Under the pieces are notes generated by a model. It searched no databases. It worked only from the letters and a program-made list of their open reading frames with translations, and was not told the DNA's origin. Below are positions 379 through 23,571 of a DNA stretch of 34,115 nt, one piece after another; the first letter of the stretch is position 1; every line of letters starts with the position of its first letter. The stretch is from an uncultured Opitutia bacterium. Its GTDB lineage: Bacteria; Verrucomicrobiota; Verrucomicrobiia; Opitutales; Opitutaceae. The translations under genes and the position numbers were made by a program. The stretch covers positions 1 to 34,115 of the forward strand of contig CAIPZZ010000205.1 of the NCBI GenBank assembly GCA_903869665.1, given 5' to 3'.

Positions 379-1638
379 TCAGGCGTCGAGCACGAGGTCG
401 CCCGCCGGGAGAGCGACGCAGGCAAGGCAGGTGCCGGGCTCGGGTTTGCTGCCGGGCTCCTGGGGATAGCTTACCTGGCCGCTGCGGATGGCGGTGACGC
501 AAGTGCCGCACTGGCCGGCGCAACAGCCGGAGGCGATGGCGACGCCCTGCGCGGTGGCGAACTCGAGGAGGTTGGCGGCGGCGCGATCCCACTCGACGGT
601 CTTGCCGGACTTACCGAAGGTGATTTTGGCGGCGGGCGCGGCTGAACCGGCGGCGGCGGCGGGCGGCGCGGCCTTTTTGACGCTGGCAGGGCCGAAGGCC
701 TCAAAATGCACGCGGTCGTCGGGCACGCCCCACGCGGCGAGCCCCTTGGTGACGGACTCCATCATGGGGCCGGGGCCGCACATGAAGAAATCGTAGTTAC
801 TGGAGGGCAGGAGCTGGCGGAAGAGGTCCACGCTCACACGGCCCGCGTGCTGGTAATCCACACCCAGGCGATCCTGCTCGGTGGGGTTGGAGTAGCAGAC
901 GTGGAGGCGGATGTTGTCGTGCTTGGCGGCAAGCGCGGCGACGTGCTCCCGCATGATGTGTTCGCCGCCGTGGCGCACCCCGTAGAACCACCAGATCTCG
1001 CGTTTGGAGCCGAGGGCCAGCAGCTCGTTGAGCATGCTGAGGCACGGCGTGATGCCGACGCCACCCGAGATCAGCACGACGGGAAACTCTTTGGCCGTAT
1101 CGAGGTAAAAGTGACCTCCCGGGGCCTTCACATCGAGGATGGTGCCCTCATGGATGTGGTCGTGGAAGAAATTGGAGGCGAGGCCGACGGGGTGCTCGGG
1201 CTTGGACGGCGGACAGCGCTTGATGGTGACACGGTAGTGATCCGGGTTCACAGCATCGCTGAGGCTGTAGCAGCGGATGGTCTTTTTTTTCTGGCCGGGG
1301 ATTTCCAGCTCGAAGGTCAGGTATTGGCCGGGCTTGAAAGGCGGGAGCGGCTTCTTGTCATGCGGGGCGAGGTAAAAGGAGCAGGCATCGCCGGCGTCGG
1401 GCACCTTTTTGGCGACGGAAAATTTGCGGACGCCGTTCCAAGGGGCGGAGTTTTCAGCGGCCTGGCGCTGCGTGCGGCGGGCGGCGTCCAGCCGCGTGAG
1501 CAGGAGCTCGCGGCCGACGGCGTCGGCGTGGACCTGCGAGCGGAGCAGCCGCATCTGGCCGGCCAAAAGGGCGACGAGCTGGCCGGCGACCAGAGCAACG
1601 AGGAGGGCACCACCAAGCAGGAGAATATTTTGCAACAT
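379..1638 (-). CDS. Membrane-anchored FAD/NAD(P)H oxidoreductase with C-terminal [2Fe-2S] ferredoxin domain
   Basis: A 419-residue flavin reductase of the ferredoxin-NADP+ reductase superfamily. Residues 5-27 form one hydrophobic anchor, followed by a basic, probably helical linker. The FAD-binding domain (about 65-180) carries RCYSLSD at 122-128, the R-x-Y-S flavin motif. The NAD(P)-binding domain has GGVGITP at 192-198 and CGPGPMM at 287-293. The C-terminal domain (about 337-419) is a plant-type ferredoxin with C-x4-C-x2-C at 372/377/380 and a fourth Cys at 404 or 407. The architecture resembles Hcr or the reductase parts of oxygenases and Na+-NQR subunit F. Its N-terminal anchor and position after a porin and a multiheme cytochrome (12 bases from the porin stop) suggest it feeds electrons from NAD(P)H into that chain. 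The acceptor is inferred, not seen. Confidence 0.88.
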   Translation of the reverse strand: MLQNILLLGGALLVALVAGQLVALLAGQMRLLRSQVHADAVGRELLLTRLDAARRTQRQAAENSAPWNGVRKFSVAKKVPDAGDACSFYLAPHDKKPLPPFKPGQYLTFELEIPGQKKKTIRCYSLSDAVNPDHYRVTIKRCPPSKPEHPVGLASNFFHDHIHEGTILDVKAPGGHFYLDTAKEFPVVLISGGVGITPCLSMLNELLALGSKREIWWFYGVRHGGEHIMREHVAALAAKHDNIRLHVCYSNPTEQDRLGVDYQHAGRVSVDLFRQLLPSSNYDFFMCGPGPMMESVTKGLAAWGVPDDRVHFEAFGPASVKKAAPPAAAAGSAAPAAKITFGKSGKTVEWDRAAANLLEFATAQGVAIASGCCAGQCGTCVTAIRSGQVSYPQEPGSKPEPGTCLACVALPAGDLVLDA

Positions 1639-1650
1639 AGCGGGAAAAAA

Positions 1651-3123
1651 TCAGAACTTGCGGCGCAGCTCAACGCGAACGCCGGCGAGATCGGGCAGGT
1701 GGGAGCGGAAGCCGGCGACGGCATCGGCGCGCAGGATCCAGGCGTGGTTGAGCGGAAGCTGCCAGCGGACGCCAAGGCCCCACTGGGGGCCGGGGGCGGT
1801 GCGCTCGGCGGGATTGCCAAAAGTGCCGAGGGCGGCGGCCTCGAGCACGAGCTGCTGGTGGAGATCAAACAGATACTCGACGCCAAGGGCGGCACCGGCG
1901 GTGTTGTGCCCGGTGTCGTCGAGCCGGGGAAAACCGGTGAGGCCGTCGGTCTCGAACACGATGCCGGTGTTAAGCAGCACGCCGCCGGCATTGGCCGCGC
2001 GGGCGAGCGACTGCGGGCGGTGGAAGCCGGCCCAGCCGTTGAGGTAGGGGACGAGCGTGGAGGGCAGGGAGGTGACGAGACTGTTCTCAACCAGCACCAG
2101 CACGCCGTCGGCGGTGCGCGCGCCGGCGGCGGGATTCTGGCCGAAGTTCCAGATCACGCGCACGCTGTTCGCGATGCGGTCGAAATAGCGGCGGGTGAAC
2201 GCGGCGGAGACATTGTGGTAGCCCAAGTCGCGCGACGCGCCCGTGCCTTCCACATAACCGTAGCCGAACTCCCAGTAGCCGCCCGTGGCCTCGATGAACG
2301 CAGTCGCGCCAAACACGTTTCCCTGGTGGTCGCCACGCAGCGCGGGCGTCGTCAGCTGGTCGAAGCCGGCGAAGAAGGTCACGTCCATGTTGGTGATCTG
2401 GAGCGCGGCGTTGTTACGGGCGGGAAGCGTGAAGGCGAGGCCGACGAAGGCATCCTGCATCCACACGCCGTTTTGAAAGAGCAACGGGATCAGACCGGCG
2501 GTGAAGGGAAGATCGAGGTGGTTTTCGCGCCCGGTGAATCCGGCGGCGAGACGGCCGAGGTCGCCCTCGAAGAACAGCGCGTCGGGCGTGAGGTCGAATT
2601 CGGTGTTGCTGGCGCGCGGGCGGTCGCCGCCGAACTCGGTGAAGGTGCCATGCGCGCGGTCCTCGAGCGGGGTGAAGAAGTAGTGGATGCGCTCGGTCGC
2701 AGTGAGCTTCAGGTCGAGGTCCAAGTTGAGCTTGGCGGCCGCGACCGCCTTTTCGGTCGCGCCGTTGTTATTCCACGCGACGGCGGTGCGGAGGTCGCCG
2801 TAAAAGAGGAGCTGCGGAAAGAGCAGGTTTTTCTCGCCGAGCAAATTGAGGCCGGGCTGGAACTGACCGGGGCCGTAAAGCTCGCGGCCGAGCTCAAGCA
2901 GCGGGCGGGCGGTGGGGTTGAGGTGCTTCGCGCCGTAGATGTCGAGCTGGCGCTGGAAGTCGTAAGGCTGGGTGTTGACGGGGTCCGGCGTGAAGGCGGG
3001 CTGGAACGCGCCGGCCGGCACGGGCGTGGCGCGCGGGTCCATGCGGACGGGCGCGGAGTCGGCGGCGAACGCGCGGGCGGCGGCGGCCAGCACGAGGAGC
3101 AGGAGGGGGCGGCGCGGGGTCAT
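1651..3123 (-). CDS. Outer-membrane beta-barrel (porin-like) protein
   Basis: A 490-residue exported protein: the signal peptide is residues 1-20 (LLLLVLAAAARAFA-A), and the rest is rich in alternating aromatic and polar strands (for example GYWEFGYGYVEG, VRVIWNFGQ, WGLGVRWQLPL). It ends in Lys-Phe, and a C-terminal Phe is typical of barrels recognised by BamA. No heme or metal motif is present. Its ATG lies one base after the stop of the pentaheme cytochrome, so the two are certainly co-transcribed. In known porin-cytochrome systems (MtrAB, Pcc) a barrel sheathes a multiheme cytochrome. This gene is in the right place for such a role, but I do not recognise a named family and sequence similarity to MtrB is not claimed. 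Confidence 0.72.
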   Translation of the reverse strand: MTPRRPLLLLVLAAAARAFAADSAPVRMDPRATPVPAGAFQPAFTPDPVNTQPYDFQRQLDIYGAKHLNPTARPLLELGRELYGPGQFQPGLNLLGEKNLLFPQLLFYGDLRTAVAWNNNGATEKAVAAAKLNLDLDLKLTATERIHYFFTPLEDRAHGTFTEFGGDRPRASNTEFDLTPDALFFEGDLGRLAAGFTGRENHLDLPFTAGLIPLLFQNGVWMQDAFVGLAFTLPARNNAALQITNMDVTFFAGFDQLTTPALRGDHQGNVFGATAFIEATGGYWEFGYGYVEGTGASRDLGYHNVSAAFTRRYFDRIANSVRVIWNFGQNPAAGARTADGVLVLVENSLVTSLPSTLVPYLNGWAGFHRPQSLARAANAGGVLLNTGIVFETDGLTGFPRLDDTGHNTAGAALGVEYLFDLHQQLVLEAAALGTFGNPAERTAPGPQWGLGVRWQLPLNHAWILRADAVAGFRSHLPDLAGVRVELRRKF

Positions 3124-3124
3124 G

Positions 3125-4981
3125 TCATTTAGCGGCGGGCGCGACGGTGAACTCGGCGGTGGTCTCGTGCAAGTTGACCATCCACTCGTTCATGGCCTGA
3201 TTCATCTCCGGCGTGGCGCCGATGAAGTCCATGAAATAGATCGGCTCGGCGCGGCTGCGCAGGCGGACGGAGAGGCGGTAGCGCCCGGGCGTTTTGAGCG
3301 CGGCAGCGGGGATGGTGTAGCGGGCGTCGCGCTGCGAGAGCGGCGGCAGGCTGCGGCCCTCCATGCGGACAAAAGGCGGGTGGTTAAGCACACTGGTCGG
3401 CTGGCTGGCGGGACGGATGAAGGGGAGCTGGTCAATATCGAGGTTGATCGGCAGATACATCTCCCGGTCGGTGCCCTTGACGTTGGTCGTGAGAAACTTG
3501 GTCTGGAGGTTGAAAAGCTGCCCGTCAACGGGGAGCCGGCCCTCGCGCACATCGCGCGAATGGAGGTCGGCCATGTCGCCACGGCTGTCCACATAGCCGG
3601 ACTCCCAGACGTTTTTACCGGCGGGGTCGAAGAGGGCGACGTTCAGCCAGATCTCCGGCTGCGCGCCGAGCGAACCGGAGGGGAGGTTGTGGCCGGAGTT
3701 GGTGTTTTTGAGCGTGTAGGCCACCTGCAGCGCGCGGCCGGCGACGGGGTCGGACTGGAAAAACGGGCCGTCGAGGTGCGAACCGTTGTGCATGACGGCC
3801 TCGCGGAGCTTGCGCTTATCCTCCAACATCCGCAGGTTTTCGTCCACGATCTCCCGCGCGTCGGCCCGGTCCTCGGGCACCTCCCACTCCGGGGGAAATT
3901 TGTAGGCGGACGGAGTAGCGGAGACTTTTTTCTCGAACTCACTCGTGCCCCAGCCGGCGCGGTAGTCAAACTTGAGCCACGTCTGGATGGAGAATTTTTT
4001 CGCCTGCGGGTGATGGGGGAAGATGCCCGGATGCACGATCGGGTAGCCGGGGCCGTAAAAGGCGTGGTTGTGGTGCTCGCGGCCGGCGTTGACCGGGAGG
4101 CCGCCGATGATGGCGGCCGGCGCGGTCGTGTAGCCTTCGGCGCGGCCGGGGGTTTTGCCCATGTGGCATTCCTGGCAGTTCACGCCTTGGGCGGCGGCGG
4201 GCGAGGCGCGGAATTGGTCCCAGACGACCTCGAGCTTGATGCCGGGATGCACGGCGACCTGGTGGCAGGAAACGCAGAACTCGGAGGTCTTGATGGTCTT
4301 AAACTCGAGGGCGGAGTTGTGGATCAACTGCCCGGGGCCGGGGTCCGACTCCTTGAGCTTGACGTGAAACGTGTCCTTCTGGCCGACCACCATCGCCACG
4401 CCGTCGCCGCTGAAGCCGCCACGGACCGGCTGGGTGAGGTCGCCCGGCTCGATGCGGCGCTCGCCATTGACCTTAGTGTATTGCTCCTGCACGCGGTGGC
4501 ACGTCACACAGGTGATGCCCTCGCGCGAAACCTCCGTGCGCTGCCAAATGGGCAGGTCGCGCTTCTCGCCGAGCGTCGTGCCCACGGCGGCGTGGCACCG
4601 CATGCAAAAGTAGCCGAGGGTGCCCTGCGAGAGGTCGTTGATCTTCTGCTCGAACTTGTGAAACACCGGCGAGACCGAGGCGTAGGCGTGGTTGGAGGAG
4701 CGCCACTCGTCGTAGATCTGCTTGTGGCAGGCGGCGCACTCGGACGCGCTAGGGAAGTTGCTCTTGGCGAACGCCGCGACGTGCGGATCCACGGGGTTCA
4801 CCGGCTGGGGCTTCGGCGGCGGGAGTGCGGGAGCGGCCGGGCGCGGCTGCACGGGCGGCGCCCCGCCACCGAGCAGATCGTCACCGCCGAGCAGGTCGTC
4901 CGAGCTCGGAGCTGCGGCGCGTGTCGCGGACGCGAGCAGACCCAGCAAGCCGAGGGAAAGGGCGAAAAATTGCGGCCTCAT
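3125..4981 (-). CDS. Pentaheme c-type cytochrome, cytochrome c554-like
   Basis: A 618-residue protein with a signal peptide (residues 1-24, cleavage near ATRAAA). Five CXXCH motifs start at residues 82, 126, 158, 236 and 269; further His residues after them could be distal ligands. The spacing and the CAACH...W..SNHAYA segment resemble the cytochrome c554 family. Residues beyond about 400 form a heme-free beta-rich domain (GHNLPSG, then several strands) of unknown role. Just after the signal peptide a duplicated acidic-hydrophobic motif, DDLLGGDDLLGG (28-39), precedes a Pro/Ala-rich tether (41-62). The same motif occurs in the decaheme cytochrome of the divergent operon. It is the first gene of the leftward operon and overlaps no other. 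A periplasmic electron carrier or reductase; the substrate is unknown. Confidence 0.85.
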   Translation of the reverse strand: MRPQFFALSLGLLGLLASATRAAAPSSDDLLGGDDLLGGGAPPVQPRPAAPALPPPKPQPVNPVDPHVAAFAKSNFPSASECAACHKQIYDEWRSSNHAYASVSPVFHKFEQKINDLSQGTLGYFCMRCHAAVGTTLGEKRDLPIWQRTEVSREGITCVTCHRVQEQYTKVNGERRIEPGDLTQPVRGGFSGDGVAMVVGQKDTFHVKLKESDPGPGQLIHNSALEFKTIKTSEFCVSCHQVAVHPGIKLEVVWDQFRASPAAAQGVNCQECHMGKTPGRAEGYTTAPAAIIGGLPVNAGREHHNHAFYGPGYPIVHPGIFPHHPQAKKFSIQTWLKFDYRAGWGTSEFEKKVSATPSAYKFPPEWEVPEDRADAREIVDENLRMLEDKRKLREAVMHNGSHLDGPFFQSDPVAGRALQVAYTLKNTNSGHNLPSGSLGAQPEIWLNVALFDPAGKNVWESGYVDSRGDMADLHSRDVREGRLPVDGQLFNLQTKFLTTNVKGTDREMYLPINLDIDQLPFIRPASQPTSVLNHPPFVRMEGRSLPPLSQRDARYTIPAAALKTPGRYRLSVRLRSRAEPIYFMDFIGATPEMNQAMNEWMVNLHETTAEFTVAPAAK

Positions 4982-5114: not shown

Positions 5115-6101
5115 ATGCCACGCCACGCACCACGGTTCCTCGTTTCCGCCCTTTTCCTCGTCCTCGGCTGCCCGGTTTTCGCGCAGCTCGATCCCGCGAA
5201 GATCACCGGCCCGGAGACGTGCACCAACTGTCACAAGCTCGAGGGCGCGGCCTGGCAGGAGATGAAGCACGCGAAGACCTTTGAGGAGCTGCACCGCCGG
5301 CCGGCGGCGCGGGAGATCGCCGGCAAGCTCGGCATCGCCAACATCAAGAACGAAAGCACCTGCGTGCAGTGCCACTACACCTCGATGGGACCGGTGGGCG
5401 CGGTCAAGGTTGTGGCCGGGGTTTCCTGCGAGCTCTGTCACGGCGCGGGGGCCGACTGGGCCAAGACCCACAATGTGAAGGAAAATCCGAACCGTATCGC
5501 CGACGCCGAGAAGCTCGGCTTCATCCCGCCCGCCAATATCTACAAGCTCGCCTCCAATTGTTACCAGTGCCACACGGTGCCGAACGAGAAGCTCGTCAAC
5601 ACCGGCGGCCATCAGGTGGGCAGCGCTCTGGAGCTGCTGGCTTGGAGCCAAGGCGAGGTGCGCCACCATTTCCTCGGTGGCAAGACCAACGCCGAGGCCA
5701 CCCCGGAGCGCAAACGTCTCCTCTTCTTGGTTGGCCGCGTCGTGGATCTGGAGTTCAGCCTGCGCGGCATCGCCAGCGCGGTGGAGCAGGGCAATTTCGT
5801 TAAAGGCATGAACGCTCGCATCAACCTCGCGAAAGCCGAGCTACAGAAGATCGCGGACAAGCTGCCCGACGGCCCCGCGAAGACCGACGTCCTCGCCGTG
5901 ATCGCCGCCGCCGTCCGACCCGCCGCCGCGGCGGACGGGACCGGACTCAAGATCACCAACAAAGACGCGGTGCTCGCCGGGGCCAAGACCATCTCCGACC
6001 TCGGCCAAAAAATGAGCTCCACCTACAAGGGCGCCGATCTGGCCGCGCTGGATCCCCTGCTGCCGACTACCGTCCAGGGCACGCCTTTCACCGCGCCCTG
6101 A
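5115..6101 (+). CDS. Tetraheme c-type cytochrome, cytochrome c554-like
   Basis: A 328-residue periplasmic protein. The ATG at 5115 gives a good signal peptide (hydrophobic LVSALFLVLGCPVFA, cleavage before QLD); upstream in-frame codons have no such sense. Four CXXCH motifs start at residues 36, 83, 105 and 149. The segment CTNCHKLEGAAW...MKH is the usual c554-type first-heme motif with a distal His candidate. After about residue 190 there is a long, heme-free, charged helical region (residues 190-328), which is unusual for c554 proteins and may mediate docking. It is the first gene of a four-gene rightward operon, 39 bases ahead of the cNMP/ferredoxin gene. Probably a soluble electron shuttle; partners are inferred from the neighbourhood. 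Confidence 0.85.
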   Translation: MPRHAPRFLVSALFLVLGCPVFAQLDPAKITGPETCTNCHKLEGAAWQEMKHAKTFEELHRRPAAREIAGKLGIANIKNESTCVQCHYTSMGPVGAVKVVAGVSCELCHGAGADWAKTHNVKENPNRIADAEKLGFIPPANIYKLASNCYQCHTVPNEKLVNTGGHQVGSALELLAWSQGEVRHHFLGGKTNAEATPERKRLLFLVGRVVDLEFSLRGIASAVEQGNFVKGMNARINLAKAELQKIADKLPDGPAKTDVLAVIAAAVRPAAAADGTGLKITNKDAVLAGAKTISDLGQKMSSTYKGADLAALDPLLPTTVQGTPFTAP

Positions 6102-6140: not shown

Positions 6141-7886
6141 ATGGCCGAGCCTATCGCGACCGTCTCGCGCCCACAGCGTTGGGACGTGCCCTTTGACGAG
6201 CGGATGGACGCCGCGGCGGTCGATCGGATTCTCGGCATCGCACCCTTTAGCCGCATTGACGCGGCGGAGTTTCCCCGCAGCACACCGCTGCGCGACATTC
6301 TGCTCAATGACACGAGCCTGCGCTCGTTCCGCAAGGGCGAGGTGATCGTGCGCGAGGGCGACTACGGCAACTCGGCTTTCTTCATCATCAGCGGTGCCGT
6401 GAAGGTCACGCTCGGCAAGGACGCCATCCCGGCCGTCCTGCTCGGCCGCCGCGAGACCCGCCAGAAAGGCTGGTTCGAGACCGTCGCCCAGCTCTGGCGC
6501 AACCCGGAGTATCCCGAGGTGCGCGACACTGCGCGCTATGCCGCGGCGCGCGCGCCCAAAGCGCGGGGTGAGACCACGGCCACCTTCGGCCGCCAAGCCA
6601 GCGCGGCGGCCCAGAATGCCGTCTTCCTCTCCGACGTCCCGGCCGTGTTGAAAGGCGGCACGGCCACGCTCGGCGCCGGTCTCTTCTTCGGCGAGATCGC
6701 CGCCCTCGGCCGCTCGCCCCGCACCGCCACCATCTTTGCCGACGAGCCGAGCGAGCTGCTCGAGATCCGCTGGCAAGGCCTGCGCGAGCTCCGGCTGCGC
6801 GCGCCCGAGATCAAGCGGTTCATTGACGCCAATTACCGCAAATACTCCCTCGAGAACCACCTCCGCGAAACCGAGTATTTCAAGGATCTGCCCCCCGAGG
6901 AGCTCCGCCTGGTCGCGGACCAGACCCGCTTCGAGACCTATGGGGCCTTCGACTGGCACACCGACTACAAGAAACACCGCGACACCGACCCCGTCGAGCG
7001 CCTCCGCGGCGAGCCCGTCATCGCCGAGGAGGGCCAATATGCCAACGGCCTCATCCTGATCCGCGCCGGGTTCGCTCGCCTGAGTCAGAAATACAACCAT
7101 GGTGAGCGCACCGTCAGCTACCTCGCCCGCGGACAAATGTTTGGCTTCGCCGAGCTCGCGCACAACTGGCGCGCCAAAGAGAGCGTCCCCTTCCGCAACA
7201 CCCTCCGCGCGCTGGGTTATGTGGACGTGCTGGTGATCCCCAGCCATGTCGTCGAGCGGCACATCCTGCCCCGAATTCCGCCCGCCGACCTGCCGACGGT
7301 CCTACCCGCCACCACCGAGGCCGATTCCCCGCTGACCCAGACACCGGGCCGGCTCCCCACTGACTTCGTCGAGTTTTTGGTGGACAACCGCTTCATCAAC
7401 GGTCGCGCCGCGATGCTGATTGACCTCGACCGCTGCACCCGGTGCGACGACTGCGTCCGCGCGTGTGCCGCCGGTCACGAGCACAATCCCCGTTTCGTCC
7501 GCCACGGCCAGCAGCTCGGCTCGCACCTCGTCGCCACCGCCTGCATGCACTGCCTTGATCCGGTCTGCATGATCGGCTGCCCCACCGGGGCCATCTCGCG
7601 CGACGCCGCCGGCGGTCAGGTCGTCATCAACGATACCACCTGCATCGGCTGCGCCACCTGCGCCAATAGCTGCCCCTACCACAACATCCAGATGGTCGAG
7701 CTGCGCAATGCGCACGGTGACCTGCTCCTCGACCGGGAAAACCGGCCCGTGACCAAGGCCGCCAAGTGCGATCTCTGCCTCGAGCAGCCCGCCGGCCCCG
7801 CGTGTGTCCGCGCCTGCCCGCATGACGCACTCGCCCGCCTCAACATCCGCGACACCGACACCCTCGCCGCATGGCTGCAACGCTGA
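6141..7886 (+). CDS. Cyclic-nucleotide-binding-type domains fused to a four-[4Fe-4S] ferredoxin
   Basis: A 581-residue protein without signal peptide or membrane segment, hence cytoplasmic. The first cNMP-binding (Crp-like) domain spans about 58-230, with REGDYGNSAFFIISGAVKV and, after a 75-residue insertion, FFGEIAALGRSPRTATI (182-198). That is a canonical phosphate-binding cassette with Gly-Glu and Arg-Thr. A second, more degenerate cNMP-type domain covers about 245-375. Residues 425-575 carry sixteen Cys in four groups (432/435/438/442, 468/471/476/480, 501/504/507/511, 543/546/555/559), as in HybA, NrfC and DmsB electron-transfer subunits, so four cubane clusters are expected. No DNA-binding helix-turn-helix follows the sensor domains. 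Its stop overlaps the cytochrome b start by 16 bases. Likely the cytoplasmic electron-transfer subunit of a membrane complex, possibly ligand-gated. Confidence 0.87.
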   Translation: MAEPIATVSRPQRWDVPFDERMDAAAVDRILGIAPFSRIDAAEFPRSTPLRDILLNDTSLRSFRKGEVIVREGDYGNSAFFIISGAVKVTLGKDAIPAVLLGRRETRQKGWFETVAQLWRNPEYPEVRDTARYAAARAPKARGETTATFGRQASAAAQNAVFLSDVPAVLKGGTATLGAGLFFGEIAALGRSPRTATIFADEPSELLEIRWQGLRELRLRAPEIKRFIDANYRKYSLENHLRETEYFKDLPPEELRLVADQTRFETYGAFDWHTDYKKHRDTDPVERLRGEPVIAEEGQYANGLILIRAGFARLSQKYNHGERTVSYLARGQMFGFAELAHNWRAKESVPFRNTLRALGYVDVLVIPSHVVERHILPRIPPADLPTVLPATTEADSPLTQTPGRLPTDFVEFLVDNRFINGRAAMLIDLDRCTRCDDCVRACAAGHEHNPRFVRHGQQLGSHLVATACMHCLDPVCMIGCPTGAISRDAAGGQVVINDTTCIGCATCANSCPYHNIQMVELRNAHGDLLLDRENRPVTKAAKCDLCLEQPAGPACVRACPHDALARLNIRDTDTLAAWLQR

Positions 7887-8710
7887 CCCGCTCCGCCCGC
7901 CGCCGACTCTGGCTCCGCGCCGGCCTGCTCGCCGCCGCTTGCGTGCTCGCGTGGAGGTGGCACCACGATCTCGCCATCGCGCTGCGCCCCACGTCCGTCA
8001 CCACCGGCCTCGCCCTGCTCGGGCTCTGTGTCGCACTCGGCCTGTTCAACGCCCGCAAAAAGCTGCCTTTTCTGCCGCTGCTCCGCGCCGCCATCTGGAC
8101 GCAAGTCCACGTCTATGCCGGCTGGTTCGCAGTCTTCCTGTTCCTCCTCCACACCGGCTTCCGCGCTCCCACCGGCGCGTTTGAGACGCTGCTCTACACC
8201 GTCTTCGCCCTCGTCGCGCTCAGTGGTGTGTTCGGACTCTGGCTGTCGCGCACCCTGCCCTCCCGCCTGACGATGCACGGGGAGAACGTCATCTACGAGC
8301 GCATCCCCGCCTTGCGCGCGAAACTCCAGCGCGAGGCCGAGGCGCTAGTGCTCCGCAGTGTGGAGGAGACGCGCTCTTCCACCATCGCTGACTTTTACAC
8401 CGCCCGACTAAAGGGCTATTTCGACCGGCCGCGCGACAGCTTGCATCATCTCCTTCGCTCGGGCTCACCGCTCAAGTCCGTCCTCTCCGAGGTCCGCCTG
8501 CTCGAGCGCTACACCAATGAGCGTGAGCGGGCGATCCTCACCGAGCTCACCGCCTGCCTCCGCGCGAAGGAGAACCTCGATTTCCAGCGCGCCGGCCAGG
8601 GCCTCCTGAAATATTGGCTCTTCGTTCACATTCCCATCACCGCCAGCCTGCTGCTGCTCGGTGCGCTCCACGGCCTGCTGGTCCTCTATTACATCGGAGG
8701 CCCCCGCTGA
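7871..8710 (+). CDS. Membrane di-heme cytochrome b subunit
   Basis: A 279-residue integral membrane protein with about five membrane segments (14-31, 43-59, 73-98, 106-127, 246-274) and a charged soluble loop (130-240). Two helices each carry a pair of His fourteen residues apart: H80 and H94 (TQVHVYAGW ... LLHTGF), and H253 and H267 (FVHIPITASL ... LHGLLV). That spacing is the hallmark of two stacked b hemes coordinated between two helices, as in quinol- or ferric-reductase-type cytochromes b. The start ATG lies inside the end of the ferredoxin gene, so the two are translationally coupled. The decaheme gene follows after 6 bases. Probably carries electrons between the cytoplasmic Fe-S subunit or the quinone pool and the periplasmic hemes. 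No named family was recognised. Confidence 0.75.
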   Translation: MAATLTRSARRRLWLRAGLLAAACVLAWRWHHDLAIALRPTSVTTGLALLGLCVALGLFNARKKLPFLPLLRAAIWTQVHVYAGWFAVFLFLLHTGFRAPTGAFETLLYTVFALVALSGVFGLWLSRTLPSRLTMHGENVIYERIPALRAKLQREAEALVLRSVEETRSSTIADFYTARLKGYFDRPRDSLHHLLRSGSPLKSVLSEVRLLERYTNERERAILTELTACLRAKENLDFQRAGQGLLKYWLFVHIPITASLLLLGALHGLLVLYYIGGPR

Positions 8711-8716
8711 ACCGCC

Positions 8717-10921
8717 ATGAAACGCCTCCAGCCCTTTGATTTCAAGTCGAGCCCTTACGAGCGCCCTAACCAAGACTGGGTGTGCGGCCGCAAGGACTGT
8801 GGCGAAAGTTGCGTGCCCGGCCCCGACGCCCGCGGCCATTGCCGGGCCGCCCCCGAGTGCCGCCCCCGGAAGGACGGCGACCGCTGGTTCTGCACCCGCT
8901 CCGATGCCCACGGCGGCAAATGTCCTGACGGCCCTCGCCCCGACGGCTCCTGCTGCCGCCCGGTGCCACCCTGTGTCCCGCGCCGCAGCGTTCGCGCCCG
9001 GCGCGGCCTGGCGGTCATGCTCGTTACCGCGCTCACTCTGGGCGGCATTCTTCTCGCTCTAGGGCTTGGCTCTGGCGGTAGCTCCGGCAGCGGCTCCGGC
9101 GGTGGCGAGGCGTTTTTTAACCCCGGGCCCCTCTCCGCCCCGCACGCCGCCGGCACGGCCAACTGCGCCCTTTGCCACAGCGCCGCCGCCCCCTCCGGCT
9201 CGCTCGCCACCGCCGCCGGCCCACACACGGATTCCCAGCTCTGCGTCAACTGTCACCAATTCGGCCACAGCGCGACCGAGCCGCACAGCCTCCCCCGCGC
9301 GACCCTCACCAGCCTGACCAAGGAGGCGATGGCCGCCACCAACAGCACCCGCGCCGCGCACGCGGCCCCGGCCGACCTCGCCTGCGCCGCCTGTCACCAG
9401 GAGCACCATGGCCGCGAGGCCGTTCTCACTCAGCTCCCCAACGCCAGTTGCCAGACCTGCCACACCCGCCAGTTTGAGGGCTTCGCCGACGGCCATCCTG
9501 ACTTCGGCCGCTATCCTTACACCCGCCGCACGCGTCTCGAATTCGACCACGCCGCGCACATTTCCACCCATTTCCCTGCCGCCACCAAGCAAGGCCGGGC
9601 CGCCCCCGCCCAGTGCAACGACTGTCACACCACCGGCCCGGACAACCGGTTGATGCTCACCCGCAGCTTTGAGGCCGCCTGCGCTTCCTGCCACCTCGAC
9701 GCCATCACCAAACCCGGCCAGAAGGGCTTGGCGGTTCTCGGCATCCCCGGCCTCGACAAGAAATCGCTCGATGCCAAGACCCCCGGGGTCGGCCAATGGC
9801 CCGCCGACGCCGACGGCGAGATCACTCCCTTTCTCCGCTATTTGCTCGCGCAGGAGCCGCAGGCTGCCACCGCGCTCGCCACCCTCAAGGGCACCGACCT
9901 CACTAATCTTGCCAACGCCACCCCGGAAACGGTCGCTGCCGCCACGCAGCTTGCTTGGTCCCTCAAGGAACTCGTCGCCGATCTCCTCGCCGGTGGGCAC
10001 GCTGCCCTGCAAAAGCGCCTCGGTTCCGCCGCGCCCGCCGCCTTCGGCCAGCTTCCGGCCGAAAGTCTCCGCGTCTTCACCAGCCCCGACTGGTGGCCCG
10101 ACTTGCTGACCGAGGTCGCCGACCATCGCGCCGGCCGGCCGCCGGCCAAGCCGGCTCCGCCTCCGACCGTCGCACCTCCCGCCTCACCTCCGCCGCCTCC
10201 CGCCAGCCAAAATCTGCTCGGCGACGACCTCCTCGGTGACGCACCCAAGCCCACCTCTCCGGCTGTCTCGCGCCCCGCCGCCACAGATGATCTGCTCGGT
10301 GGCGACGACCTCCTCGCCGCGCCCACCCCTCCAAAGCCGCCCGCCGCGCCCAAATCCGCCGCGCCCATCGCCCCTGAGAAATGGGCCGCGGCCGGCGGCT
10401 GGCACGTCTCCGCCCCCGACTATACCCTCCGCTACAAACCCTCCGGCCACGCTGACACTTTCCTGAAGGTTTGGCTCGATCTCACCGCCGCCGACCCGGC
10501 CGCGCGCCCGGTCTTCGCACAAATCGCCGCCGCCAGCGCATGCGTGAAATGCCACAGCACCGACGCCGCGCCCGCGCCGTCCGCCGCGTTGCTCGTGCAA
10601 TGGCGGGCCGACGCGCCCGCGCCCCAGCTCCACACCTTCACCAAGTTCTCCCACGGCACCCATTTCAGCCTGCTCGACGCCAAGGCCTGCCAGACCTGCC
10701 ACCAGCTCGCCCCGTCCTCGCCCGCCTATGCCGCCTCTTTCCGGGACAACCACGACCCCGCCAAGTTTGCCAGCAGCTTCCAGCCCCTCAGCCTAGCCAC
10801 CTGCGCTCAGTGCCATCAGGAGCGCGGCGCAGGCACGAGCTGCCTGCTCTGCCACAACTACCACGTCGGCGAGATTGCCCCCGTGCCCGTTCGTAGCCTC
10901 CTCCACCCCGCGTCCCGCTAG
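8717..10921 (+). CDS. Membrane-anchored decaheme c-type cytochrome with cytoplasmic Cys-rich domain
   Basis: A 734-residue protein. Residues 21-86 hold ten Cys in two tandem copies of a roughly 30-residue module (W-x-C...C...GP..G-x-C...P-x-C). A basic stretch (RRSVRARRG) and one membrane helix (97-117) then place the rest in the periplasm, with a Gly/Ser spacer (118-130). Ten CXXCH motifs follow: six in an N-terminal block (starting 150, 176, 223, 245, 300, 322) and four in a C-terminal block (609, 658, 696, 709). A heme-free helical stretch and a Pro/Ala-rich linker separate the blocks. The linker (475-550) contains LLGDDLLGD and DDLLGGDDLL, matching a motif in the pentaheme protein. The first block resembles cytochrome c3/c7-type proteins. 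It is the last gene of the operon. Role inferred: inner-membrane-to-periplasm electron transfer. Confidence 0.85.
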   Translation: MKRLQPFDFKSSPYERPNQDWVCGRKDCGESCVPGPDARGHCRAAPECRPRKDGDRWFCTRSDAHGGKCPDGPRPDGSCCRPVPPCVPRRSVRARRGLAVMLVTALTLGGILLALGLGSGGSSGSGSGGGEAFFNPGPLSAPHAAGTANCALCHSAAAPSGSLATAAGPHTDSQLCVNCHQFGHSATEPHSLPRATLTSLTKEAMAATNSTRAAHAAPADLACAACHQEHHGREAVLTQLPNASCQTCHTRQFEGFADGHPDFGRYPYTRRTRLEFDHAAHISTHFPAATKQGRAAPAQCNDCHTTGPDNRLMLTRSFEAACASCHLDAITKPGQKGLAVLGIPGLDKKSLDAKTPGVGQWPADADGEITPFLRYLLAQEPQAATALATLKGTDLTNLANATPETVAAATQLAWSLKELVADLLAGGHAALQKRLGSAAPAAFGQLPAESLRVFTSPDWWPDLLTEVADHRAGRPPAKPAPPPTVAPPASPPPPPASQNLLGDDLLGDAPKPTSPAVSRPAATDDLLGGDDLLAAPTPPKPPAAPKSAAPIAPEKWAAAGGWHVSAPDYTLRYKPSGHADTFLKVWLDLTAADPAARPVFAQIAAASACVKCHSTDAAPAPSAALLVQWRADAPAPQLHTFTKFSHGTHFSLLDAKACQTCHQLAPSSPAYAASFRDNHDPAKFASSFQPLSLATCAQCHQERGAGTSCLLCHNYHVGEIAPVPVRSLLHPASR

Positions 10922-19287: not shown

Positions 19288-19329
19288 GATTTTATCCGTC
19301 GGCGCGGCGCGGCCCGATCCGCGAACAAA

Positions 19330-19500
19330 TCACTTCTCGCGTTTCAGCCAGCGCCGGAGCCGGCGATACCAGCGGTAGCCGCTGAAGTCGGGCAGGATAA
19401 AGTCGCCGAAGCTCTCGATGGCGCGCACGGACTTGCCCACGCCGCGCACGACCGCGTCCTCTAGGCGAAGATTGGGGGCGTGGCCGCCGTCGGAGAACAC
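19330..19500 (-). CDS. Possible small protein, 56 residues, or remnant of a larger gene
   Basis: In the 349-base gap between the transporter and the glycosidase the minus strand has a protein-like end: acidic/hydrophobic then strongly basic (SFGDFILPDFSGYRWYRRLRRWLKREK at the C-terminus, of which the basic tail WYRRLRRWLKREK is most striking). A GTG at 19500 is the only nearby start. The frame stays open upstream into the glycosidase gene on the other strand, so truncation by rearrangement is as likely as a genuine small gene. The family was not recognised. The rest of the gap shows nothing further. Confidence 0.3.
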   Translation of the reverse strand: MFSDGGHAPNLRLEDAVVRGVGKSVRAIESFGDFILPDFSGYRWYRRLRRWLKREK

Positions 19501-19636
19501 CGGCTCTCTCCCTCGACCCGTCGAGCCTGAAGCCCGACCTGCGCCGGCCTCCGCCCAAGCACTCTCCGCCCCGCTTCCTCGCGGCTTGCCTTGGCTGGGC
19601 GCATCGTGTCTTTTCGCGCCCCCTCTCCCCTTCCCC

Positions 19637-22246
19637 ATGCGCCATCCCCGCTCGCTCGCCCTGCTCCTTTCCCTCACGGCCCTGACCGTCCCCGCTCTGC
19701 GCGCGCAGGGCGATCGCCGCGGCGGTCCCGCCGCTTCGGCTGATAGCGCGACCGCCATCCCCGTCATCACCGAACCCGCCATCTACCAAGACGCCTCCCA
19801 GCCCGTCGAGAAACGCGTCGCCGATCTCATCCGCCGCATGTCGCTCCAAGAAAAGGCGCGCCAGCTCGGCGACACCGCCCCCGCCATCGAGCGCCTCGGC
19901 GTGCCGAAATACGGCTGGTGGAACGAGGCCCTCCACGGCGTCGCCCGCGCCGACACCGCCACCGTTTTCCCGCAGGCCATCGGCAACGCCGCCACCTGGG
20001 ACCCCGCGCTCATCAAAGCCATGGGCGACGTGATCGCCGTCGAGGGCCGCGCCAAATACAACGACTCCATGGCGAAGAACGGCGGCACCGCGCGCTACTA
20101 CGGCCTCACCTACTGGTCGCCCAACATCAATATTTTCCGCGACCCGCGCTGGGGCCGCGGCCAGGAGACCTACGGCGAAGATCCCTTTCTCACCGCGCGC
20201 ATGGGCGTCGCGTTCATCCAAGGCGTGCAAGGCGACGACCCCACCTACTACAAGGCCCTCGCCGCCGCCAAGCACTACGCCGTCCACAGCGGCCCCGAGC
20301 CCAGCCGCCACACCGACGACATCCACCCCAGCGAGGTGGATTTTTATGACACCTATCTCCCGCACTTCGAGGCCGCCGTGCGCGAAGGCAAAGTCGGCTG
20401 CGTGATGGGCGCCTACAACAGCGTCTACGGCGCCTCCGCCACCGGCAGCAAGCTGCTCCTCACCGATCTCCTCCGCACCAAGTGGGGCTTCCAAGGCTAT
20501 GTCGTCTCCGACTGCGATTCCATCGCCGACATCTACCGCAAGCCCCCGCAGGGCCACGCCCTCGTGGCCACCGCCGAGGAGGCCGCCGCCATCGCGCTGC
20601 TCGCCGGCGCCGATCTCAACTGCGACTTCGGCCGCGGCGGGCCCTTCAGCGTGCTCCCCAGCGCCGTCGCCAAAGGCCTCGTCACTGAGGCCGATGTGGA
20701 CCGCGCGCTCACCCGCGTGTTCACCTACCGCTTCAAGCTCGGCATGTTCGACCCGCCCGAGAAAGTCCCCTTCTCCAAATACACTCTCGCCGACCTCAAC
20801 ACCCCCGCGCACTCCGCGCTCTCGTTGCAGGCCGCCCGCGAGTCCATCGTGCTCCTGAAAAACACCGGCGTCCTCCCCCTCGACCCCGCCAAGCTGAAAC
20901 GCGTCGCCGTCATCGGCCCCAACGCCACCTCCGTGCCCGCGCTGCTCGGCAATTACAACGGCGTCCCCACCGCCCCCGTCACCATTCTCGACGGCATCCG
21001 CGCCGCGCTCGGCACCGGCGTCGAAGTCACCACCACCCAAGGAGTCCCCTATGTCACCGGCTACGGCCAGCGCGCCGCCCCGCGCGGCGGCCGCGGCGCG
21101 CGCGGCGGCGCCCCGGCGTTTCCCGCCGTGCCCCAGTTGCGCACCGACCTCGGCCTCACCGCAGAGCAGGTGACAAAAATTCAGCCCATGGTGGACGCCA
21201 TTGCCCGCATCCAAGCCGAGAACAACGCCGACCAAGTCCAGGCCGATGAGCTCCGCAACCAGCAGCTCACCGCGATCAATGCCGTCCTCACCGAGGCCCA
21301 GCGCGCGCTCCTCTCCACCGTGCTCGCCGGCGGCACTGTCACCCCGCCCTCCGGGCCCGGCACCCCCGAGTTCGCCGCCGCCGTCGAGCTCGCGCGCAAT
21401 GCCGACGCCGTCATCTACGTCGGCGGGCTCATCGCCGCCGGCGCCAGCGGCGGCTCGAACAACGCTCCCGGCCTCGAAGGCGAGGAAACCCAGACGCCCT
21501 ACGACGGCTTCCTCGGCGGCGACCGCACCAAAATCGAGCTTCCCGCGGTGCAGACCGAGCTCTTGAAAGCCCTGCAAGCCACCGGCAAGCCCGTCATCTT
21601 CGTCAATTGCAGCGGCAGCGCCATGGCCATGCCCTGGGAAGCCGCCAACCTCCCCGCCATCGTGCAAGCCTGGTATCCCGGCCAGAACGGCGGCACCGCC
21701 GTCGCCGACATCCTCTTCGGCAAAACCAACCCCTCCGGCCGCCTCCCCGTCACCTTCTACGCCTCCACCGCCGAGCTGCCCGACTTCAAGGATTACAGCA
21801 TGAAGAACCGCACCTACCGCTTCTTCACCGGCAAGCCCGCCTTCGCGTTCGGCCACGGCCTGAGCTACACGAAATTCACCTACACCAACGCCAAGGCCGC
21901 CGCCCCCACCGTCACCAGCGACAGCACCATCAAAGTCAGCGTGGACGTGACCAACACCGGCACCCGCGACGGCGACGAAGTCGTGCAGATCTACGCCAAG
22001 GAGACCGGCCTCAACGACCCCGCTCGTCCCCAGAATTCGCTCGTCGGCTTCCAGCGCGTCACCCTCGCCAAGGGCCAAAAAAAGACGATCGAGATCGCCA
22101 TCCCCGTCTCCGCGCTCCGCCACTGGGACACCGCGAAGCAAGACTACGTCGTGGACTCCGCCGCCTACGAGCTGCTCATCGGCGCAGCCAGCGACGACAT
22201 CCGCCAGACCGTGGCCTTCCGCGTCGCCGCCGGCCCCGGCGCGTGA
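19637..22246 (+). CDS. Exported GH3 glycoside hydrolase (beta-glucosidase/beta-xylosidase type) with helical insertion
   Basis: An 869-residue secreted enzyme: signal peptide 1-23 (LALLLSLTALTVPALRA-Q). The GH3 N-terminal domain (about 48-370) contains KYGWWNEALHG (91-101), WSPNINIFRDPRWGRGQETYGEDP (160-183, substrate pocket) and GYVVSDCDSI (287-296), with Asp 292 the likely nucleophile. The alpha/beta sandwich domain (about 395-745) has GLEGEE (612-617), the acid/base candidate region, and a C-terminal fibronectin-III-like domain (about 760-865) follows. The best resemblance is to bacterial xylosidase/arabinosidase-type GH3. Residues 478-575 are an Arg/Gly-rich hinge plus a helical LTxxQ-like segment (LGLTAEQ at 505-511, VLTEAQ at 550-555) inserted between strands of the second domain, where PA14 domains sit in relatives. 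No neighbouring sugar genes, so the substrate is open. Confidence 0.92.
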   Translation: MRHPRSLALLLSLTALTVPALRAQGDRRGGPAASADSATAIPVITEPAIYQDASQPVEKRVADLIRRMSLQEKARQLGDTAPAIERLGVPKYGWWNEALHGVARADTATVFPQAIGNAATWDPALIKAMGDVIAVEGRAKYNDSMAKNGGTARYYGLTYWSPNINIFRDPRWGRGQETYGEDPFLTARMGVAFIQGVQGDDPTYYKALAAAKHYAVHSGPEPSRHTDDIHPSEVDFYDTYLPHFEAAVREGKVGCVMGAYNSVYGASATGSKLLLTDLLRTKWGFQGYVVSDCDSIADIYRKPPQGHALVATAEEAAAIALLAGADLNCDFGRGGPFSVLPSAVAKGLVTEADVDRALTRVFTYRFKLGMFDPPEKVPFSKYTLADLNTPAHSALSLQAARESIVLLKNTGVLPLDPAKLKRVAVIGPNATSVPALLGNYNGVPTAPVTILDGIRAALGTGVEVTTTQGVPYVTGYGQRAAPRGGRGARGGAPAFPAVPQLRTDLGLTAEQVTKIQPMVDAIARIQAENNADQVQADELRNQQLTAINAVLTEAQRALLSTVLAGGTVTPPSGPGTPEFAAAVELARNADAVIYVGGLIAAGASGGSNNAPGLEGEETQTPYDGFLGGDRTKIELPAVQTELLKALQATGKPVIFVNCSGSAMAMPWEAANLPAIVQAWYPGQNGGTAVADILFGKTNPSGRLPVTFYASTAELPDFKDYSMKNRTYRFFTGKPAFAFGHGLSYTKFTYTNAKAAAPTVTSDSTIKVSVDVTNTGTRDGDEVVQIYAKETGLNDPARPQNSLVGFQRVTLAKGQKKTIEIAIPVSALRHWDTAKQDYVVDSAAYELLIGAASDDIRQTVAFRVAAGPGA

Positions 22247-22331
22247 GCGTTTGAGGTGGAGCGCGACGTCCCGGGGCGCTCGGCTTGGAACTGGAGGGCG
22301 GGGTCGCCGAACCCCGCCGATTTGCTCTTCC

Positions 22332-22467
22332 GTCCTCTGTCCTCCGTCCTCCGTTCTCCGTCCCTGCCTCCGATCGCCCACGGCCTTGGCTCTTCGCCCG
22401 AACGTTGAACGTTCAATTTTGAATATTGGACTTTGCCCCCCGCTCCCGACCTTCGACCTTGGACTAT
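22332..22467. repeat. Patch of degenerate heptanucleotide tandem repeats
   Basis: Three runs with a 7-base period lie in the 257-base gap after the glycosidase. They are five units like GTCCTCC at 22332-22366; GAACGTT, GAACGTT, CAATTTT, GAATATT, GGACTTT at 22400-22434; and CGACCTT, CGACCTT, GGACTAT at 22447-22467. The second run contains the perfect palindrome TTGAACGTTCAA (22405-22416). The sequence is pyrimidine-rich on the plus strand and unlike coding sequence here. Confidence 0.75.
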
Positions 22468-22503
22468 CAGGCCTTCGACGGTTCATGGTGAACTCTGGCG
22501 TTT

Positions 22504-23571
22504 TCATGGTTTGATTAGGTTTGATTGGGTTTGATTTACCTCGGGCGGGATTTCGTGGCTGGGTTCAACCACAGGCGACTGGGCGGGAGCCGCCTCCGGT
22601 CGTGGCGTGATTTTTTCCATGCTTGTTTTAGCTTGTTTTTGCTTGTTTCGGCCGGACTTTCTCCGCGCCGGCTCGGCCTTCTTATCCTCCGCGATACTCC
22701 GCAAGACCCGGTGCCGCTCCGCTTCGGGCAGGCTGAAATAATACTCACAATCGTCCCGCAGGATCGCCCGCAGCGCGGGCGGCATGGCCTCGCTGGCCTT
22801 CCGCATTTTCTCGTCCATTTGGCGACGCTCGGCCAACCGCACCCAGCTTTTCCGCCGTGCAACCTCCACCCAGTCCCGGAAAATCTGGTCCACCTCGGCG
22901 TAACCCTTCAAAATCTTGGTGAGCCCATCCGGGATGGGCTCGCCCGCCTCGCGGAGCTTTTTCTCACGGGCCGCGAAAGTGTCATAGACCTCCTTCAGCT
23001 TGCGGATCCGGCGGAGACGGTCGGGATCCACCGCCTCAAACTCCTCCTCCGCCAGCGCCCGCAGCTCCGCCACCCTCGCTTTCTCCTTCGCATCGGCGCG
23101 GTCCTCCAGCGTCAGCTTCAGCCGCTGTGCGGCCTGGTTGCTGCGGCGCAGCCGGGCCAGCTCGCACGCGACCCCCAGGATGGCACGGGTTTTCTCCGGC
23201 CCTTCGGCCCCGGCTTCGGCGTCGCGCAGCACGCGTGCCAGCGCCAGCGCCAGATGCGGCTCGATCCGCTCCGCCAGCGCGTCCGCGCCGGCCGCACCTT
23301 GGATGGCCTTCGCCTCCTCGGTCAGCGTGCGCGCAAAGGCCAGCTCCTGCTGCAGCCGCTGCCAGCGCGCGAACCCCGCCTGCCGCCAGTTGGACAAGTT
23401 CTGCTGCTTGATCGGCTCGCCGCCGAATTTTTCCTGCAGCACCGCCTGCACCTCCGGCAGGGTGTTGAGCCATCGCAGCAGCAATGGGCCCGCCTCGCCG
23501 TCTTCCATTCGGCGGCAAAGCGCCTCCCGGATGTCGGCTGGCAGGCTGTCAATTTTGCCCGGCTGACCCAT
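22504..23571 (-). CDS. Phage terminase small subunit-like (DUF3486-type) DNA-binding protein
   Basis: A 355-residue, highly charged, helical protein. Its N-terminus (IDSLPADIREALCRRM ... LLRWLNTLPEVQAVL ... PIKQQNLSNWRQAGF, residues 7-67) resembles the helix-turn-helix start of Mu-like terminase small subunits (DUF3486). Long stretches after residue 70 look like coiled coil (about 140-235). The tail (305-355) is Lys/Pro-rich and disordered, and its last codons are formed by a 10-bp repeat. It starts 7 bases after the methyltransferase stop, so it belongs to the lexA - methyltransferase cassette. No large terminase, portal or capsid gene is nearby, so a packaging role is doubtful; a DNA-binding partner of the methyltransferase or a domesticated phage protein are alternatives. 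Confidence 0.55.
   Translation of the reverse strand: MGQPGKIDSLPADIREALCRRMEDGEAGPLLLRWLNTLPEVQAVLQEKFGGEPIKQQNLSNWRQAGFARWQRLQQELAFARTLTEEAKAIQGAAGADALAERIEPHLALALARVLRDAEAGAEGPEKTRAILGVACELARLRRSNQAAQRLKLTLEDRADAKEKARVAELRALAEEEFEAVDPDRLRRIRKLKEVYDTFAAREKKLREAGEPIPDGLTKILKGYAEVDQIFRDWVEVARRKSWVRLAERRQMDEKMRKASEAMPPALRAILRDDCEYYFSLPEAERHRVLRSIAEDKKAEPARRKSGRNKQKQAKTSMEKITPRPEAAPAQSPVVEPSHEIPPEVNQTQSNLIKP
22509..22538. repeat. Three 10-bp tandem repeats at a gene end
   Basis: GTTTGATTAG, GTTTGATTGG and GTTTGATTTA follow each other without gaps. On the minus strand they encode the last residues (NQTQSNLIKP) of the terminase-like protein and the sequence leading into its stop. Confidence 0.8.

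Follow-up and report, generated by a model that had tools for sequence, protein, structure and literature searches.

What is a ferredoxin that carries cyclic nucleotide-binding (CNB) domains doing among multiheme cytochrome genes? The question is raised by a 34,115-nucleotide stretch of DNA from an uncultured Opitutia bacterium (contig CAIPZZ010000205.1; hereafter, the window). An initial annotation of one of its genes had described sensor domains fused to a 4x[4Fe-4S] ferredoxin, with no DNA-binding domain, and had proposed an electron-transfer subunit that might be gated by cAMP, a cyclic dinucleotide, or another ligand.

Domain searches agree with the proposed architecture. The 581-residue protein (hereafter, CNB-ferredoxin) matches the cNMP_binding profile (Pfam accession PF00027; 5.2e-27, 94.1 bits against a curated cut-off of 27.5) in three stretches rather than two because an insertion of ~75 residues interrupts the first CNB domain (CNB1). 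Fer4_7, Fer4_10, Fer4_11, Fer4_9, and other Pfam profiles score above cut-off within residues 424-564. The N-terminal half matches the CNB domains of PKG, PKA, and bacterial channels (for PKG and PKA also by phmmer), and among PDB entries the ferredoxin half is best matched by HycB3 from the hydrogen-dependent CO2 reductase (4.5e-17). Cysteines number exactly 16 (432/435/438/442, 468/471/476/480, 501/504/507/511, and 543/546/555/559), which suggests a cofactor content of four [4Fe-4S] clusters. Together with a conserved gene set, these features support an electron-transfer subunit with a probable sensor half. Inspection by eye revealed neither a signal peptide nor a twin-arginine motif, and the protein is probably cytoplasmic. 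A Pfam scan found no helix-turn-helix or other DNA-binding domain anywhere in the protein, and the combination of this absence with a ferredoxin C-terminus rules out a Crp/Fnr transcription factor.

Table 1. Features of the CNB-ferredoxin locus, in window coordinates.
Feature	Position	Strand	Basis
NAD(P)H-type flavoprotein reductase	379..1638	-	Pfam
Putative outer-membrane beta-barrel, signal-like N-terminus, C-terminal Phe, Cys-free	1651..3123	-	no Pfam match
Pentaheme c-type cytochrome adjoining the barrel-like gene	3125..4981	-	5 CxxCH; Pfam Cytochrome_C554
Tetraheme c-type cytochrome, Cytochrome_C554, first of the plus-strand group	5115..6101	+	4 CxxCH; Pfam 3.2e-15
CNB-CNB-ferredoxin gene	6141..7886	+	ATG-to-stop ORF, 581 aa
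CNB1, first half (about residues 58-98)	6312..6434	+	Pfam cNMP_binding; phmmer to PKG/PKA
Insertion in CNB1 (about residues 99-173)	6435..6659	+	alignments; pLDDT mostly <50
CNB1, second half, with canonical phosphate-binding cassette FGEIAALGRSPRTAT	6660..6830	+	alignment, structural match
CNB2 (about residues 250-380; Pfam stretch around 290-372)	6888..7280	+	Pfam, model, alignment
4x[4Fe-4S] ferredoxin domain, HydN/HycB/DmsB type, 16 Cys	7404..7850	+	Pfam, Cys count
Cytochrome b-like membrane protein; H80, H94, H253, H267 conserved	7871..8710	+	alignment
Decaheme c-type cytochrome	8717..10921	+	10 CxxCH; Pfam Cytochrome_C7; alignment

The fusion recurs well beyond this genome. Full-length orthologues are present in all five congeners (78-84% identity), and identity beyond the genus is about 44-55%. 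A scan of one genome per species yielded 13 loci from Opitutae/Verrucomicrobiota, Planctomycetota, a Mariprofundus MAG, and another proteobacterial MAG, and whole-genome searches were positive in 16 of the 387 genomes sampled across the phylum. We aligned a set of 33 loci from Verrucomicrobiota, Planctomycetota, and Proteobacteria, the last including the Mariprofundus MAG and Sphingobium. All 16 cysteine columns are complete in 32 of these 33 relatives, the remaining one being truncated by the end of its contig. Because congeners and distant relatives alike retain both cassette and cysteines, CNB-ferredoxin is a genuine fusion and not a chance product. Among the weak ferredoxin matches in relatives (L011-L020), those examined (L013, L018, and L033-L035, which cover three others) were rejected as family members: they encode a CNB-less ferredoxin plus a membrane domain. 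Genome G168 contains a degraded second copy in two frames with a truncated cytochrome b (L078, 8117-9857, minus strand) besides a separate full-length copy.

Sphingobium plasmids carry a diverged version, among them pMSHV of Sphingobium herbicidovorans MH, a culturable laboratory strain. At locus L049, a single chain comprises a pyridine-nucleotide oxidoreductase, two CNB domains, and the ferredoxin, and is followed by cytochrome b and a decaheme gene with ten CxxCH motifs. The N-terminus of this ten-CxxCH protein is FHA-like, by a weak Pfam match below cut-off, and the protein may resemble a 10-heme forkhead-associated cytochrome listed in a Gallionellaceae pangenome paper (PMC10734462).

The genes around CNB-ferredoxin form two divergent groups, transcribed in the order pentaheme, barrel-like, reductase on the minus strand and tetraheme, CNB-ferredoxin, cytochrome b, decaheme on the plus strand. 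A scan of the 133 bases between them found no sigma-70 promoter or terminator. Within the plus-strand group, 39 nt separate the tetraheme gene from CNB-ferredoxin, the last 16 nt of which also belong to the cytochrome b gene, and the decaheme gene follows after a 6-base gap. Cytochrome b and decaheme genes had been suggested as constant neighbors, and this holds wherever the contig reaches, save for one broken copy. The cytochrome b gene follows CNB-ferredoxin in 32 of 32 readable loci (one of them a fragment, at the degraded G168 copy), and its four conserved histidines would fit two b hemes. The decaheme gene follows in 31 of 32 readable loci (it is split in one of these, and in two the contig ends within it). 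In most members its product begins with two 5-Cys repeats (W-C-G...C..GP...G.C...C.P; window 8717-8990) followed by one hydrophobic segment; the repeats, which may bind a metal or an Fe-S cluster on the side facing the cytoplasm, are absent in L048, and a Pirellulaceae member has lost their cysteines.

The reductase consists of an N-terminal hydrophobic segment, FAD_binding_6, NAD_binding_1, and a C-terminal [2Fe-2S] Fer2 domain. A homologue is encoded near CNB-ferredoxin in 26 of 33 loci; none was recognized at the diverged loci L079 and L080, at L025, or next to the broken L078 copy. The putative barrel gene adjoins the pentaheme gene in several loci, and the two are candidates for a porin-cytochrome conduit through the outer membrane (Mtr/PCC-like), in which a beta-barrel would embed a multiheme cytochrome, although the barrel-like product matches no Pfam profile. 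This pair was not seen in several Opitutaceae, where a ten-CxxCH protein of 1,100-1,300 residues is encoded nearby (L027 15802-19701, L028 1-3641, L070 1-3313, L071 8062-12000, L076 15528-19454); the L027 protein, the only one scanned, contains LVIVD repeats. Elsewhere in the window, minus-strand frames of 1,071 and 355 codons (19292-22507 and 22504-23571) have no Pfam match at 1e-5.

Both Pfam and the alignment agree with the initial annotation that CNB1 has a canonical phosphate-binding cassette and that the second domain (CNB2) is degenerate. The CNB1 motif GEIAALGRSPRTA can be aligned, with no gaps, to the cassettes of CNB domains of known structure and has the canonical F-G-E-x-A...P-R-x-A form. 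F183, G184, E185, and R194 are invariant in all 32 sequences that cover the cassette, and P193 is conserved in 31 of them, against a background in which only 9 of 93 CNB1 columns reach at least 97% identity. In known CNB domains, the Glu and Arg that correspond to E185 and R194 contact the ribose and phosphate. The residue after R194 is Thr or Ser in most sequences; Thr at this position, as in PKG, accompanies a preference for cGMP, and Ser is found in cAMP-accepting bacterial sites, so the sequence cannot name the CNB1 ligand. The CNB2 cassette is non-canonical throughout the core family, with a lengthened loop and a shifted Glu, and canonical only in the outgroups L079, L080, and L049, which suggests that two working pockets may be ancestral.

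A further question is whether CNB1 could hold a nucleotide. An AF2 model of CNB-ferredoxin built on a 13-sequence alignment has an overall pLDDT of 66, with the CNB cores as its confident parts and low confidence in the insertion, where it places one or two short helices, and in much of the ferredoxin. CNB1 modelled alone superposes on the cGMP-bound MlotiK1 channel domain (Z 14.4, rmsd 2.3 over 124 residues), and CNB2 on PKG CNB-B (Z about 15, rmsd 2.3) and likewise on PKA (Z about 15). The match of CNB1 to nucleotide-bound domains thus shows a fold that allows a nucleotide pocket, and the refuting outcome named in the initial annotation, a first pocket unable to accommodate a nucleotide, did not appear; but the cassette loop falls below pLDDT 50 and the model is therefore no proof of such a pocket. 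Superposition of the whole protein on tandem PKA and PKG subunits gives an rmsd of 11-16, so the model does not fix how CNB1 and CNB2 are placed relative to each other.

The protein can be compared with several known systems. The initial annotation considered control of this kind unusual; it is indeed rare, but a described relative exists in the Bact_Pyrredox group, which combines tandem CNB domains with an N-terminal pyridine nucleotide-disulphide oxidoreductase and in whose description the word 'ferredoxin' is absent from the main text (Kannan et al., 2007; PMC2246266). Tandem CNB domains, a canonical cassette, pyridine-nucleotide redox coupling, and the lack of a DNA-binding domain are common to both. 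The window reductase differs in being a separate gene product that is ferredoxin-reductase/flavohemoglobin-like and has a [2Fe-2S] domain, and the window CNB domains differ in the CNB1 insertion and the non-canonical CNB2. The fused Pyr_redox domain that is the hallmark of Bact_Pyrredox is absent from the window protein and present in Sphingobium L049 (Pfam), where the cassette GEVGLISGRRRGSTVRA is near the printed Bact_Pyrredox consensus GEMGLISGRRRGATVRA and the ferredoxin resembles that of the window protein. CNB-ferredoxin lacks the defining fused reductase yet follows the same logic, and Bact_Pyrredox is the nearest described group.

The ferredoxin half shares its 16 cysteines in four motifs with the HydN, HycB, NrfC, and DmsB subunits. 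CNB-ferredoxin differs from these in about 420 additional N-terminal residues that carry the two CNB domains and in its partners, which are cytochrome b and a decaheme rather than NrfD/DmsC or a molybdoenzyme. Neither the HydN equivalog (NF007658; 62 bits against a cut-off of 260) nor the NrfC equivalog (TIGR03149; 43.6 against 377.6) applies among NCBIfam models, and an NrfCD-type quinone-linked module was rejected because a Pfam scan of six neighboring genes found no NrfD (PF03916) partner. On the sensor side, PKA regulatory subunits and PKG have the tandem arrangement, fold, and cassette type in common with the window protein, whose CNB domains are instead attached to a redox domain and not a kinase and whose CNB1 contains the insertion. 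The CNB-lysine acetyltransferases (Rv0998 of Mycobacterium tuberculosis and its M. smegmatis relative), a structural match to CNB1 (Z about 13), likewise place a bacterial CNB domain on an output that does not bind DNA, which is an acetyltransferase there and a ferredoxin here. We found no description of the CNB-ferredoxin fusion or its gene set in open-licence full texts, which is weak evidence of absence.

How, then, might the sensor and redox halves work together? In Sphingobium the reductase is fused ahead of the CNB-CNB-ferredoxin; the separate window reductase would most simply fill the same place, and the CNB block would then sit between electron entry and the ferredoxin. Drawing also on the conserved cassette and gene neighborhood, both of which strengthen this reading, we propose, with about even confidence, a path from NAD(P)H through the flavoprotein, CNB-ferredoxin, and cytochrome b to the decaheme that is gated by a 3',5'-cyclic mononucleotide in CNB1; we infer the identity and binding of the ligand, the path and direction of the electrons, and the gating. 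CNB-ferredoxin would act as the hub, on the cytoplasmic side, of an electron-transfer complex in the inner membrane, its four [4Fe-4S] clusters accepting NAD(P)H electrons from the neighboring FAD/[2Fe-2S] reductase and passing them to the diheme cytochrome b. From there they would reach the membrane-anchored decaheme and then periplasmic, perhaps outer-membrane, cytochromes, though flow may run in reverse in some hosts. The CNB1 ligand would most likely be cAMP or cGMP from class III cyclases. Once the ligand is bound, the CNB1-insertion-CNB2 block between reductase and ferredoxin would alter the docking or geometry of these two, and movement of this block could connect or disconnect electron entry and the ferredoxin, with the second messenger thereby switching or tuning electron flow directly.

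Several other readings of the CNB domains deserve consideration. They could be scaffolds that join reductase, ferredoxin, and cytochrome b and have lost ligand sensing, which we judge rather unlikely: CNB2 is conserved though the core family has lost its canonical cassette, meaning that at least one CNB fold is retained without a classical pocket, but the invariance of E185 and R194 would be hard to explain in a purely structural CNB1. It is unlikely, too, that what the cyclic nucleotide governs is not electron flow but whether the complex assembles, attaches to the membrane, or stays stable. The insertion in CNB1 is partly conserved (G102, E126, D165) and could serve as an attachment or docking site, whereas sequence cannot separate control of assembly from gating.

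The sensor half might alternatively answer to a different ligand, such as a nucleoside, heme or NO as in DNR- or CooA-type proteins, or a cyclic dinucleotide. CNB folds can bind ligands besides cyclic mononucleotides, and the structural neighbors of the model include DNR and the inosine- and guanosine-binding PKA subunits of trypanosomes. Yet the Glu...Arg cassette, invariant in CNB1, is to our knowledge lacking in DNR/FNR-type proteins; the genus has class III cyclases, and GGDEF occurs in the window genome at a single locus, in two pieces in different frames. We therefore regard a different ligand as quite improbable. The cyclic dinucleotide put forward by the initial annotation appears to be the least likely candidate, because CNB1 bears the cassette of 3',5'-cyclic mononucleotide sites.

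A cyclic mononucleotide gate implies a source of the ligand. Two matches to class III cyclases were found in each of the six genomes of the genus; in the window genome, both of those examined retain, as judged by eye, the paired Asp residues and the Asn/Arg pair that catalysis should require. Class III cyclases were found in 29 of 30 carrier genomes checked (none in G168), but also in 14 of 18 relatives without the CNB-ferredoxin gene. Cyclase presence thus failed to discriminate carriers and provides permissive evidence only.

Bacterial cAMP is known chiefly as a transcriptional signal that acts through CRP. If the proposed gating is correct, a cyclic nucleotide would control respiration or electron export rapidly and at the post-translational level, bypassing gene expression. 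More tentatively, at somewhat less than even confidence, the locus may represent a widespread and undescribed module of respiration whose NAD(P)H-to-multiheme path is gated directly by a cyclic mononucleotide through the tandem CNB domains of an Fe-S subunit, and in which this subunit is the sole CNB-type receptor of some hosts. The module occurs in several phyla, its outgroups have two canonical pockets, and congener G002, at 98% completeness, has CNB-ferredoxin as its sole PF00027 gene alongside two class III cyclases.

The receptors are more informative than the cyclases. No Crp-sized CNB protein was found in the genus. The window genome has two further CNB proteins, both named from sequence by eye. 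In one, a SulP/STAS-like transporter (L081 1396-3090, minus strand, contig C129; L091 and L092 are of the same kind), the CNB domain is C-terminal. The transporter has a canonical-looking cassette (GEMGFYSGAPRSADI) and would be another direct CNB target outside transcription. The other, on contig C7, is an NDH-2-like NADH dehydrogenase (L085 199-1764) with a degenerate C-terminal CNB domain. Along with G002, these cases show that CNB domains in the genus are carried mainly by transport and redox proteins.

CNB domains have been joined to respiratory machinery a second time, independently of CNB-ferredoxin, in other members of the family and in one member of the genus (L031, genome G003), which counts in favor of the proposed gating. 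Here a canonical CNB domain is inserted in an NrfD-type membrane subunit (L030 7490-9238, plus strand; L031 586-2313, minus strand; L032 2835-4583, plus strand), with the cassettes FGEVSALTGTPRVAT, FGEISALNGTPRTAT, and FGEISALNGTPRMAT, respectively, and the genes adjoin those for a 4Fe-4S ferredoxin subunit and a four-CxxCH cytochrome.
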